Position numbers and translations under genes: made by a program | Assembly (NCBI GenBank): GCA_040879145.1 | Contig: JBBDKX010000006.1 | Location: 1 to 43,746 of the forward strand | Reading direction: 5' to 3' | Source: Candidatus Spechtbacterales bacterium | GTDB taxonomy: Bacteria; Patescibacteriota; Minisyncoccia; Spechtbacterales; 2-12-FULL-38-22 | Length of the DNA stretch: 43,746 nucleotides | Notes under the pieces: generated by a model | The model's input: the letters and a program-made list of their open reading frames with translations, nothing else | What the model was told of the DNA's origin: nothing | Database searches by the model: none | Shown here: positions 17,176-20,379 of the stretch, piece by piece | Layout: the number at the start of each line of letters is the position of its first letter | Numbering within the stretch: position 1 is the first letter of the stretch

Positions 17176-17388
17176 TTAAAGGGTTTTGTTTTTGCGATCA
17201 TGCAGCCAAATCCTGAAAAAGCTAACTGCTATTATTGGGAAGAACAAAATAAGAAGCAGTAGAAAGCCACATATCCAATGGGGGGGGTTGGGCAACTTCT
17301 CCTGGGAAAGAAATACAACGTGCATAAAAATCGAGGCGATAAGCTGAAACATTAAATAACCAAGCAGTATCAATACAACTTCCGGCAC
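17176..17388 (-). CDS. Small two-helix membrane protein
   Basis: This 70-aa protein has two hydrophobic segments (about 3-27 and 38-60) and a basic C-terminus (HDRKNKTL), suggesting a hairpin membrane protein with the tail inside. GTG start, supported by AAGGAGGAG 5 bp upstream. It is driven by the first copy of the shared promoter-operator module. Function unknown. Confidence 0.7.
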   Translation of the reverse strand: MPEVVLILLGYLMFQLIASIFMHVVFLSQEKLPNPPHWICGFLLLLILFFPIIAVSFFRIWLHDRKNKTL

Positions 17389-17504
17389 TTTCTCCTCCTT
17401 TTAAGAGCTAAAAACATAGTATCACAAAGGAAAACCTATGCAACTGGTAACATTCCAACATTCTCAAGAATATTAGAATGTTGTGTGTAAGGTGTGGGGT
17501 AAAT
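17389..17504 (-). promoter_or_regulatory. Promoter-operator-leader module, copy 1
   Basis: Read on the minus strand, it contains a 34-bp imperfect palindrome (17449-17482), -35 TTGCAT (17438-17443), an extended -10 TACTAT (17416-17421, 16-bp spacer), then TTTTTAGCTCTTAAAAGGAGG. It is clearly homologous to the modules at 18669-18805 and 19664-19800 but somewhat diverged. Confidence 0.75.
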
Positions 17505-17527
17505 AAAAAACCCCGCGTAGCGGGGTT
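17505..17527 (-). terminator. Terminator of the 122-aa gene
   Basis: The hairpin AACCCCGCTACGCGGGGTT is followed by TTTTATTTACCCC, the conserved start of the next module. Confidence 0.85.
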
Positions 17528-17544
17528 GGGAATTTCGTGGGAAA

Positions 17545-17913
17545 CTAAAGTTGCTCAAGAGATTTGACCATATCTTCAAAGCCTACTGAATTCGCATATT
17601 CAATTGCATCATTTAAATGGTCGCTGAATGCGGCGTCATTTCCTATTCTTAAATAAATAGCGGTTTCGGCTATAAGCAAAGCTATTTGCGCTCTTATATA
17701 ATCGGGGCTTGCTTCAACCTGATCTTCTGCAAACTCGCGCCATGCTTCGTATTTTTCTCCCGGAACTTCGGTGATTTCCTGCTCCAATTCCCTCATTTCA
17801 GGAGTTTCCTCAAAACCAGCCTGCACAGCCAGGTGTTCAAGGGTCTTTAGGCGTTCCTCTTTTTTCTCTAAAGAAGAATTATCTTGATTGTTGTATCCTT
17901 CAAAATTAAACAT
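17545..17913 (-). CDS. Hypothetical acidic helical protein
   Basis: This 122-aa protein is acidic and predicted all-helical (SLEKKEERLKTLEHLAVQA, IAETAIYLRIGNDAAF, DHLNDAIEYANSVGF), reminiscent of helical-repeat or TPR-like bundles, though no motif is definite. No Shine-Dalgarno is present. A -10-like TAAAAT lies about 8 bp before the ATG, again suggesting a leaderless message. It ends at its own terminator. Confidence 0.65.
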   Translation of the reverse strand: MFNFEGYNNQDNSSLEKKEERLKTLEHLAVQAGFEETPEMRELEQEITEVPGEKYEAWREFAEDQVEASPDYIRAQIALLIAETAIYLRIGNDAAFSDHLNDAIEYANSVGFEDMVKSLEQL

Positions 17914-17929
17914 ACATTTATTTTAACAT

Positions 17930-17959
17930 AAAAAAACCGCTGTGTTTCAAGCGGTTTTA
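17930..17959 (-). terminator. Terminator of the winged-helix-like gene
   Basis: The hairpin AAACCGCTTGAAACACAGCGGTTT is followed by TTTT on the minus strand and overlaps the gene's last codons. Confidence 0.8.
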
Positions 17960-18246
17960 TCTGACAATGCTTTTTTACCATCAGCAGTAATGCGGATTTT
18001 TCTGGAATCACCCGAAACAAGTTCAACCCAGTTCAAGTATTCTATCATCGGCTCAACTATTGATTCGAGTACAGCATGGCGACCCACCACATGGGAGTCC
18101 GCGCCCGCTGAAAATAAATCATGCCATCTTACATTAAAGTGATCCAGCACATCATTTTCTATCTGCCGACGAGTTAAACCTTGTTCATCTGCTTCGTTTA
18201 AAGATTTCAATATTGCTCTTCTGATTTGAAAAAGATTAATATTCAT
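17947..18246 (-). CDS. Possible winged-helix DNA-binding protein
   Basis: This 99-aa protein has a helix-turn-helix-like N half (LTRRQIENDVLDHF) and ends with ITADGKKALSDK, the strand-helix ending common in winged-helix regulators. No family assigned. It would be a candidate reader of the palindromic operator in neighbouring modules, but that is inference from proximity. It has the shared leader AGCTCTTAAAAGGAGG and its own terminator. Confidence 0.55.
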   Translation of the reverse strand: MNINLFQIRRAILKSLNEADEQGLTRRQIENDVLDHFNVRWHDLFSAGADSHVVGRHAVLESIVEPMIEYLNWVELVSGDSRKIRITADGKKALSDKTA

Positions 18247-18271
18247 CTTTCCTCCTTTTAAGAGCTAAAGT

Positions 18272-18297
18272 AAAAATAGCACCATGGGTGCTATTTT
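18272..18297 (-). terminator. Terminator of the 123-aa gene
   Basis: The hairpin AAAATAGCACCCATGGTGCTATTTTT lies between the stop at 18307 and the next leader. Confidence 0.85.
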
Positions 18298-18306
18298 GCA
18301 AGAGGA

Positions 18307-18678
18307 TTATGCATGTAAACTTTTATGACACGCTTTTTCGGCTATTATCGGCCAAAATATTTTTCCGCAAGGACACTTTTCAGACCTTGGAACTGAAACT
18401 TCAATTTTTTGACTGCGTTCAAATCCATCTTCTGTTTTTTCGTAAACATTTTTAAATATTCTTTGCGGATTACTTATCCGTCCGTGGCGACAACTCTCTT
18501 TTTCGTAAAAAGTAGAGTTTATAACAAAATCTACTTGAGCATCCTCATCGGTTTTCACATCCATCTTTTTATGCTCTATCATGTAATAGGTATTGTGCCA
18601 CTCGGAACCATCATCATAGCAAACGGGAACTAAGACCTCAATTATATACTCAACTTTCTTTTGAGTTTTTTGCTTCAT
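18307..18678 (-). CDS. Hypothetical protein with C-terminal CPCG motif
   Basis: This 123-aa protein has an N-terminal beta-rich part (EYIIEVLVPVCYDDG) and a C-terminal Cys/His cluster (KCPCGKIFWPIIAEKACH) that could bind zinc. The first codons (ATG AAG CAA A) lie inside the duplicated 137-bp module, so the promoter, leader and start of this gene are shared with the 55-aa gene at 19506. Function unknown. Confidence 0.68.
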   Translation of the reverse strand: MKQKTQKKVEYIIEVLVPVCYDDGSEWHNTYYMIEHKKMDVKTDEDAQVDFVINSTFYEKESCRHGRISNPQRIFKNVYEKTEDGFERSQKIEVSVPRSEKCPCGKIFWPIIAEKACHKSLHA

Positions 18679-18805
18679 CCTTCCCTCCTTTTAAGAGCTA
18701 AAAACATAGTATCACAAAAGAAAATCTGTGCAACCGGTAACATTCCAACATTCTTGAGAATGTTGGAATGTTATGTGTAAGGTGGGGATAAATTAAAACC
18801 CCGCT
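18669..18805 (-). promoter_or_regulatory. Promoter-operator-leader module, copy 2 (identical to copy 3)
   Basis: This stretch of about 137 bp is identical to 19664-19800. On the minus strand it begins inside the stem of the upstream gene's terminator and runs through TTTAATTTATCCCC. It then has a perfect 34-bp palindrome (18739-18772, arms AACATTCCAACATTCT), -35 TTGCAC (18728-18733), extended -10 TACTAT (18706-18711) and AGCTCTTAAAAGGAGG, ending at the third codon. Confidence 0.85.
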
Positions 18806-18817
18806 TTTGCGGGGTTT
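18795..18817 (-). terminator. Terminator of the ART-like gene
   Basis: The hairpin AAACCCCGC AAAA GCGGGGTTTT is followed by AATTTATCCCC. Its distal stem half is part of module copy 2. Confidence 0.85.
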
Positions 18818-18827
18818 AGGAATTAAA

Positions 18828-19415
18828 CTATGTTAAAAGTTCGTTAATTTTTTTTATTTTTTCACCTTGTGAGATATTAGTGTCCATATCAGAAACAGCT
18901 TTCAATTTATCTGCAGATAAAAGATCTTGCCACCGAACAAGAACCACATCATCTAAATTATTTTTTGTCCTATACGTTCCGGCACATTCTATCCACTGTT
19001 CTTCAGCCAAAGAATCAATTGCGTTACATATGCCTTTTTCACTAAAGTCGACTATTGTAAGACCGAACCGTGCATCTGCGAGACCGGCTATTTTTTCTTC
19101 CTGTTCTTTCAAGCTTAATCTCTCATCCAAAAAAACATGTAACAAGCTGTCATAATCTCTTTCAACTTTAGATGCATCAAGAATACTAACCTCAAACAAT
19201 GCTGTGCTATGAGAAGTTATCTCAGGATTCAACTCTATAAGAGCTGCCAACGCCAAAAATTCAGCTTGTCTGTAGTGGAACAAATAAATATACTCGGGAT
19301 CACCTTGAACCCCCAACCAAGTATTCCGCTTTCCTATCTTTGATCCCGGATGCAATCCTTTTTCTAATATTTCTCCAACATTCTCTTTGGGTGTAAAATG
19401 ATAAAACTTTACCAA
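18828..19415 (-). CDS. Putative ADP-ribosyltransferase-fold protein
   Basis: This roughly 195-aa protein begins VKFYHFTPKENVGEILEKGLHPGSK, a YHFT...N...IL..GL.P pattern typical of ART-fold proteins such as DarT-like and DUF7002-like families, then has WLGVQG and YIYLFHY. Family assignment is by resemblance only, and toxin activity is inference. TTG at 19415 is preferred because the AAAGGAGG is 6 bp upstream; the TTG two codons earlier abuts it. The leader is AGTTCGTTAAAGGAGG. No antitoxin-like partner is evident next to it. Confidence 0.5.
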   Translation of the reverse strand: MVKFYHFTPKENVGEILEKGLHPGSKIGKRNTWLGVQGDPEYIYLFHYRQAEFLALAALIELNPEITSHSTALFEVSILDASKVERDYDSLLHVFLDERLSLKEQEEKIAGLADARFGLTIVDFSEKGICNAIDSLAEEQWIECAGTYRTKNNLDDVVLVRWQDLLSADKLKAVSDMDTNISQGEKIKKINELLT

Positions 19416-19474
19416 TCTCAACCTCCTTTAACGAACTATTGCCAAAATATATTAAAAACCAAAAAATTGCAAGC

Positions 19475-19500
19475 AAAAACCCCGTTTTTATACGGGGTTT
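19475..19500 (-). terminator. Terminator of the 55-aa gene
   Basis: The hairpin AAACCCCGTATAAAAACGGGGTTTTT directly follows TGA-TTCCT. The same stop-plus-terminator context occurs at 20098-20129. Confidence 0.85.
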
Positions 19501-19505
19501 AGGAA

Positions 19506-19673
19506 TCACTTGTTTTTGTTATTTAGCGTTATGCCTATGGCCAAAAACGGAGTTATGTGCAAAGAAAAGACTGCTACCTTGTTTCCCTTTTTTGATATAA
19601 GAGTTGTTTTTGAAACAAATAAAAACCTGGTGCCGAATACTTTTGTATCAAATCCACCTTTTATTTGCTTCAT
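19506..19673 (-). CDS. Small hypothetical protein (55 aa)
   Basis: The ORF runs from ATG at 19673 to TGA and encodes 55 residues: a beta-like first half (GTRFLFVSKTTLIS) and a short hydrophobic stretch (AVFSLHITPFLAIGITL). It has a strong Shine-Dalgarno and the full promoter-operator module, identical to that of the 123-aa gene, with which it shares its first three codons. It ends AAGTGA before a terminator resembling that of the 66-aa gene. The regulatory context makes it likely to be expressed. No family recognised. Confidence 0.65.
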   Translation of the reverse strand: MKQIKGGFDTKVFGTRFLFVSKTTLISKKGNKVAVFSLHITPFLAIGITLNNKNK

Positions 19674-19800
19674 CCTTCCCTCCTTTTAAGAGCTAAAAAC
19701 ATAGTATCACAAAAGAAAATCTGTGCAACCGGTAACATTCCAACATTCTTGAGAATGTTGGAATGTTATGTGTAAGGTGGGGATAAATTAAAACCCCGCT
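19664..19800 (-). promoter_or_regulatory. Promoter-operator-leader module, copy 3 (identical to copy 2)
   Basis: It is an exact duplicate of 18669-18805, offset by 995 bp. The palindrome is 19734-19767, the -35 TTGCAC 19723-19728 and the -10 TACTAT with upstream TG 19701-19706. The palindrome ends 5 bp upstream of the -35, a position suited to an activator or a co-operative repressor. Confidence 0.85.
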
Positions 19801-19815
19801 GTTATACGCGGGGCT
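19791..19815 (-). terminator. Terminator of the 70-aa coiled-coil gene
   Basis: The hairpin GCCCCGCGTATAACAGCGGGGTT is followed by TTAATTT. The proximal stem strand differs from copy 2 while the distal strand is shared. Confidence 0.8.
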
Positions 19816-19821
19816 TGAGTG

Positions 19822-20034
19822 TTATTGTTCAAGATTCTTTTTTCTCTCCTCAAGTTCAATTCTTTTTTCTTTATTTTTCAACTCTCTTTCCTCAACTTTA
19901 TTTTCAAACCAGCCTTTTACGGCTTTATCCAATCTGGAGCCCCCAAAAAACATGCTCCAAAAAATGCTAATAAACAATGCTAATACAGCCAAAACAATAA
20001 TTAACTCAACAGCACTATCTAAAAAAGCGTCCAT
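19822..20034 (-). CDS. Single-pass membrane protein with coiled-coil tail
   Basis: This 70-aa protein has one N-terminal membrane helix (about 8-30, VELIIVLAVLALFISIF), then a basic linker and a charged coiled coil (KVEERELKNKEKRIELEERK). AAGGAGGAAG precedes the ATG, with the leader CAGTTCATTAAACAGGAAGGAGG. Function unknown; it resembles small anchoring or phage-lysis-associated proteins only in layout. Confidence 0.68.
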   Translation of the reverse strand: MDAFLDSAVELIIVLAVLALFISIFWSMFFGGSRLDKAVKGWFENKVEERELKNKEKRIELEERKKNLEQ

Positions 20035-20097
20035 ACTTCCTCCTTCCTGTTTAATGAACTGGTTATAATATAGCGCAAGATTTAAAAAATTTCAAGC

Positions 20098-20121
20098 AAA
20101 AACCCCGCTAGTGCGGGGTTT
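20098..20121 (-). terminator. Terminator of the 66-aa gene
   Basis: The hairpin AAACCCCGCACTAGCGGGGTTTTT follows TGA-TTCCC, the same 3' context as the 55-aa gene at 19506. Confidence 0.85.
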
Positions 20122-20126
20122 GGGAA

Positions 20127-20327
20127 TCACTTATTTGTTTCTTCTATCATATCCCGATATTCAACGTCTCCACCAAGCTCTTTATCAATTAGACACATCA
20201 ACTCTTCGTAGCGCTTGTTCTGGGGGTGGCGCTTCATCTTAGCTCCCCATCTGGTCCATGCCATGGCCCTGCAGGCCTCACGCAACAAACGCAAATCTTC
20301 TTTGCTAAGTTTTGAGATATCCAACAC
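20127..20327 (-). CDS. Small helical hypothetical protein
   Basis: This 66-aa helical protein (ISKLSKEDLRLLREACRAMAW, NKRYEELMCLIDKEL) has no recognised family. GTG start supported by AAAAGGAGG 6 bp upstream, with the canonical leader TTTAGCTCTTAAAAGGAGG and a -10-like TATGAT. Its stop and terminator context is shared with the 55-aa gene. Confidence 0.65.
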   Translation of the reverse strand: MLDISKLSKEDLRLLREACRAMAWTRWGAKMKRHPQNKRYEELMCLIDKELGGDVEYRDMIEETNK

Positions 20328-20379
20328 TTATTCCTCCTTTTAAGAGCTAAAGAAAGGATATCATAAAATTTAGGAAAAC

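Follow-up and report, generated by a model that had tools for sequence, protein, structure and literature searches.

Among the described regulatory systems, those closest to the locus analysed here are the ArsR/SmtB repressors (CadC, CzrA, SmtB, HlyU and the SdpR-type autorepressors), which are small one-domain winged-helix proteins, and the LexA/SOS regulon, in which an autoregulated repressor acts on scattered palindromic sites with repair genes among its targets. A cysteine metal or thiol site is conserved in many, not all, members of the ArsR/SmtB family. Two further comparisons concern the arrangement of the DNA: integron gene cassettes, in which small ORFs of unrelated sequence are strung together in an array and flanked by repeats, and horizontal regulatory transfer or promoter copying, by which one promoter region comes to stand before different genes. 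To our knowledge, little is known about gene regulation in the Patescibacteria, most of whose members are not culturable. Apart from the cysteine site, features like these are found or predicted at the present locus, which lies in a stretch of 43,746 nucleotides (the window) from a Candidatus Spechtbacterales bacterium with a tiny genome and centres on a 34-bp palindrome. We consider it likely that this palindrome is the operator of a regulator of about 89 aa with the ArsR/SmtB fold (P0001), which would govern an autorepressed regulon of the Parcubacteria that includes three genes of the window, the promoters of these three genes having been duplicated locally.

The part of the window between 16.7 and 21.1 kb is a series of small minus-strand genes with terminator hairpins between them. 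Three promoter modules lie there on the minus strand (17394-17516, 18666-18808 and 19661-19803), before genes starting at 17388, 18678 and 19673, respectively, and each is composed, in this order, of a terminator tail, the palindrome, the hexamers TTGCAY-16-TACTAT with an extended -10, and a leader with a Shine-Dalgarno sequence. The features of the window are as follows:

17176..17388, minus strand: putative target gene for a hydrophobic protein of 70 aa; without match in Pfam
17394..17409, minus strand: leader AGCTCTTAAAAGGAGG with Shine-Dalgarno sequence, copy 3 module (genome search)
17415..17443, minus strand: predicted promoter copy 3, -35/extended -10, TTGCAT-16-TACTAT (pattern search, sequence reading)
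17449..17482, minus strand: putative operator copy 3, two mismatches to a perfect palindrome (palindrome matching)
17509..17527, minus strand: terminator 5' of copy 3
18251..18266, minus strand: leader AGCTCTTAAAAGGAGG, no operator module (genome search)
18307..18678, minus strand: putative target gene for a protein of 123 aa; not assigned to a family with confidence, and without homologue among 35 relatives
18669..18805, minus strand: 137-bp identical stretch, first (sequence comparison)
18684..18699, minus strand: leader AGCTCTTAAAAGGAGG, copy 1 module (genome search)
18705..18733, minus strand: predicted promoter copy 1, -35/extended -10, TTGCAC-16-TACTAT (pattern search, sequence reading)
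18739..18772, minus strand: putative operator copy 1, perfect palindrome (palindrome matching)
18796..18817, minus strand: terminator 5' of copy 1; the 137-bp identity begins in its 3' arm
19506..19673, minus strand: putative target gene for a protein of 55 aa; without match in Pfam
19664..19800, minus strand: 137-bp identical stretch, second (sequence comparison)
19679..19694, minus strand: leader AGCTCTTAAAAGGAGG, copy 2 module (genome search)
19700..19728, minus strand: predicted promoter copy 2, -35/extended -10, TTGCAC-16-TACTAT (pattern search, sequence reading)
19734..19767, minus strand: putative operator copy 2, perfect palindrome (palindrome matching)
19791..19816, minus strand: terminator 5' of copy 2; the 137-bp identity begins in its 3' arm
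20333..20348, minus strand: leader AGCTCTTAAAAGGAGG, no operator module (genome search)

A preliminary description of this DNA had reported three units with a palindromic operator, an extended -10 and a common leader, and this is what we see (three palindrome matches in the window as against zero expected from shuffled sequences, and TGA before the second hexamer as the extended -10), except that the leader is present in five copies rather than three, all of them within the array and none elsewhere in the 847-kb genome. The two leaders that stand without an operator module precede the genes at 18246 and 20327; genes of the array outside the three units thus have either this leader alone or neither leader nor module. 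The identity that the same description had placed between the upstream terminator and codon 3 of two unrelated genes extends over exactly 137 bp, from inside the 3' arm of the terminator to the first base after codon 3 (ATG AAG CAA A), and the ORFs downstream of the module copies bear no significant similarity to one another; the third module, at 17.4 kb, has 89% identity over some 123 bp and differs in its first hexamer. A 3' stop-plus-terminator context said to be shared by the genes at 19506 and 20127 is indeed visible in the sequence (72% likeness over the upstream 58 nt), but it counts as weak evidence because several genes here have hairpins of the CCCCGC type behind them. None of the small genes of the window has a confident match in Pfam or NCBIfam. 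We also note a 195-aa protein on the minus strand of the window (18828-19415), beginning KFYHFTPKENVGEILEKGL, which by eye resembles an ADP-ribosyltransferase and has no match in Pfam or NCBIfam; elsewhere in the genome, a NADAR gene bears the operator.

Beyond the array, the palindrome occurs at four further places in this genome, three on contig C25 and one on C1, making seven with those of the window, and the genes behind it are the three of the window, the regulator, the NADAR gene and one of unknown function; past another site, the first codon of a MazG-like gene lies at a distance of 319 bp. Searched for across the class as CATTCYNACATTCTYRAGAATGTNRGAATG with up to two mismatches allowed, it is found in 83 of 384 genomes, in up to 14 copies per genome, and the reversed pattern used as a control gave no match in any genome listed. 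The 245 distinct sites include 165 with a called gene start within 300 bp, as judged by gene calling with a simple script, and the flanks of the copies are not conserved, a few local duplications excepted. Another dispersed repeat of this genome, the perfect palindrome TGGGAAAACCGGTTTTCCCA, is present in 11 copies (one with a mismatch) on contigs C1, C21, C25, C35 and C36, and two of these copies lie close to operator sites on C25 (positions C25:10207 and C25:11900 are among those of this repeat).

The preliminary description had also raised the possibility of a common DNA-binding regulator, and a candidate is provided by contig C25, where the palindrome lies on the promoter of a gene for an 89-aa winged-helix protein, P0001. 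Homologues of P0001 (E<=1e-30) are encoded in 68 of the 384 genomes; the operator is present in 50 of these 68, and the two co-occur with an odds ratio of 24 (p=1.5e-25). There remain 33 operator genomes without a strong regulator match and 18 regulator genomes without the type 1 operator, though type 2 sites are present in several of these 18. In the operator-only genomes, one of which (G196) has eight operators, no regulator match reaches the threshold, and a search beside their operators for weaker homologues found none; the reader may have diverged there, or its gene may have been missed. A scan of named genomes returned 79 loci, nearly all from Patescibacteria and mostly from Parcubacteria (Jorgensen-, Sung-, Giovannoni-, Kaiser-, Yanofsky- and Tagabacteria, among others), and the few under other names may be mis-binned. 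The AlphaFold model of the regulator (pLDDT 92.7) has the ArsR/SmtB fold according to Foldseek, with CadC, ArsR, SmtB and CzrA as best matches (TM 0.7-0.9); in Pfam, the protein scores 24.6 bits against HTH_5 (cut-off 22) and 28 against MarR (cut-off 24.6), and its profile matches include HlyU and CadC. It resembles the ArsR/SmtB repressors in size, predicted fold, profile matches and the operator on its own promoter, but it scores 42.6 against the NCBIfam metalloregulator subfamily HTH_metalloreg, below the cut-off of 55, and its family has no conserved cysteine, the commonest cysteine column being occupied in 11 of 47 members. It further differs from them in its 34-bp operator of four half-sites, in its many scattered targets and in the operator found at either end of the gene, of which the 3' one lies within the coding end in most members of its family. 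We found no description of the operator or the regulator in the open-access literature, and this small, probable repressor of the ArsR fold, spread across the Parcubacteria, has apparently not been described before.

Among 80 regulators from named genomes, the operator is found on the 5' side in 70, on the 3' side in 69 and on both sides in 63, and none of the 80 shuffled 5' flanks contains it; its position on the regulator's own promoter is therefore kept across genomes. Of 28 regulator promoters, 17 have a -10-like hexamer that starts 5-10 bp after the operator, so that the operator covers the spacer and the -35, which is the geometry of repression, and the regulator is therefore most likely autorepressed. 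The 3' operator lies in exact coding registers in 68 of the 110 regulators with a 3' copy, where it supplies the stop codon: in 29, the gene takes in the first 17 nt of the operator (TTC CAA CAT TCT TGA, read as F-Q-H-S-stop), and in 39, the first 8 nt (TTC TAA, F-stop). The stop codon of the first register requires a TG or TA centre, which is present in 27 of the 29. In P0001 of this genome, the 3' site lies about 30 bp past the gene end, outside the coding end.

The operator variants sort with residues 47, 49, 50 and 54 of the regulator, which fall within its predicted recognition helix (residues 45-57) and appear to match them: G49 is found with the asymmetric type 2 site in 42 of 42 cases, S49-E50-R54 with a TYRA centre in 78 of 81, T47-Q50 with a TGCA centre in 53 of 58 and N47 with a TATA centre in 7 of 8. 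Since two sites of one regulator are counted separately in these figures, and the tree of the 89-aa proteins is too weak to tell independent changes from shared ancestry, we speak of a pairing and not of proven co-evolution. This genome also encodes a type 2 paralogue of the regulator (L240:2594-2881, contig C30) with a palindrome of its own, CATCCTTAAAAACTGGAGTTTTTAAGGATG, which occurs three times in the genome, always beside the paralogue (C30:6434, 6998 and 7425).

The apparent targets were surveyed with Pfam on 106 operator-adjacent genes, with 65 other genes of the same loci as the comparison. Matches listed for the targets include UvrD, RadC, UvrC, two S24/LexA proteins (both confirmed as LexA), two PIF1 helicases, RarA, Ogt, DprA, exonuclease VII, RmuC, TatD, MsrA, MsrB, four TspO, an aminotransferase V (SufS-like), two ABC ATPases (SufC-like), CMAS, NADAR and NUDIX; comparable matches in the comparison genes are UvrA, DNA ligase, SufBD and NifU. 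DNA-repair and oxidative-stress genes appear modestly enriched, with 23 of 106 targets against 4 of 65 comparison genes among the matches listed (p 0.0086), and 13 of 106 against 2 of 65 for repair alone, likewise among the matches listed (p 0.050), the grouping being our own and made post hoc, after the lists had been seen. Many targets fall outside any theme. In several genomes, the operator is directly followed by genes for small proteins that combine a membrane segment with an HTH_11-like domain, at L226:1877, L078:4124, L158:1548, L184:1561 and L121:958, and a family of about 85 aa, ubiquitin-like by eye, is found behind the operator or adjoining the regulator (L078:2145-2405, L236:2173-2433 and L024:971-1216). 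Downstream of the C25 operators lies a gene for a 682-aa protein (L020:5463-7511) that resembles GIY-YIG proteins at its start, helicases in its middle part and LexA/S24 at its C-terminus.

The repeated sequence might be explained without such a regulon. The preliminary description had read the array as cassettes analogous to, but distinct from, integrons. On this reading, a recombination system would swap ORFs while the 5' promoter module and the 3' terminator stay fixed, as could be suggested by unrelated ORFs behind 137 identical bp, by the position of the two junctions (codon 3 and the terminator), and by one leader in five copies. We reject this as very improbable: the promoter-leader module is confined to this one genome of the 384, in three copies within 2.3 kb, and no other genome has it before different ORFs; the repeats adjoin the ORFs on their 5' side only, and attC-like sites do not flank them on both sides; genes of the array outside the three units have the leader alone or are bare; and copies of the palindrome elsewhere have unrelated flanks. 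Pfam scans of ten array genes found no site-specific recombinase, and two genomes of the same family have neither the module nor the 123-aa gene. Since the promoter-leader module is absent from the rest of the 384 class genomes, it appears to have been copied locally, most likely by duplication or gene conversion of the 5' module; the sequence around operators has been copied in two or three other genomes too, partly with neighbouring coding sequence. Unlike horizontal regulatory transfer and promoter copying as otherwise described, the copying here is between adjacent genes within a single array of this genome and takes in the first three codons. A REP- or MITE-like element that moves with the winged-helix gene, or is spread by it, would account for the palindromes that bracket this gene and for solitary scattered copies, some far from gene starts, but it is an improbable source of a sequence that has at most 14 copies per genome, flanks that differ between copies (a few local duplications apart), a fixed spacing to the -10 at the regulator and a repeated position before the same families, e.g., TspO; it was rejected on the lack of flank conservation.

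If the palindrome is an operator, it might still be read by another protein or to another effect. That it is a LexA (SOS) box, with the small winged-helix gene as merely one target, would fit the recurrence of repair genes and the two genomes in which the operator precedes lexA itself, but this is highly unlikely and was rejected: LexA is over the cut-off in just 35 of 80 operator genomes, the other 45 having no match at that level, the palindrome is present in 4 of 30 lexA loci, the only LexA match in this genome is the S24 part of the 682-aa fusion protein, and variation of the operator tracks residues of the winged-helix protein, which has another fold than LexA and no protease domain. Also against it, a review (PMC7739468) places the study of LexA in Patescibacteria alongside direct-repeat motifs. 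Rather less easily set aside, if on balance doubtful, is the reading that regulator and operator are as proposed but that the protein activates the window genes, or that the regulon is not about damage. The window operators end five bases upstream of the -35, an activator-like position (the operator of the NADAR gene is also upstream of the -35, which differs from the regulator's own promoter), and other targets include pilM, glycosyltransferases and unknowns; against this stand the repression geometry at the regulator's own promoter and the enrichment in repair and oxidative-stress genes.

On the reading of the palindrome as the operator of P0001, for which binding and autorepression are deduced from sequence, the regulator would hold its own promoter closed, and a second operator would lie at the end of its gene, forming part of the coding end in most family members and supplying the stop codon there. 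The same protein would bind the palindrome at scattered target promoters until some signal alters control, and its position in the window would permit repression from upstream or activation. As a wider and tentative proposal, these elements may constitute a Parcubacteria-wide, LexA-independent damage-response regulon under an ArsR-fold autorepressor of about 90 aa, with operators at both gene ends, the downstream one encoding the C-terminus and stop codon, and with regulator and operator staying together and diverging as one unit under a readable residue-to-operator code. An operator that doubles as the stop codon of its repressor would link coding and regulatory sequence in an unusual way. 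With regulator and operator both recognizable from sequence, regulons may become predictable in many uncultured genomes, and the regulator is a testable candidate for the damage response of those Patescibacteria that lack LexA.
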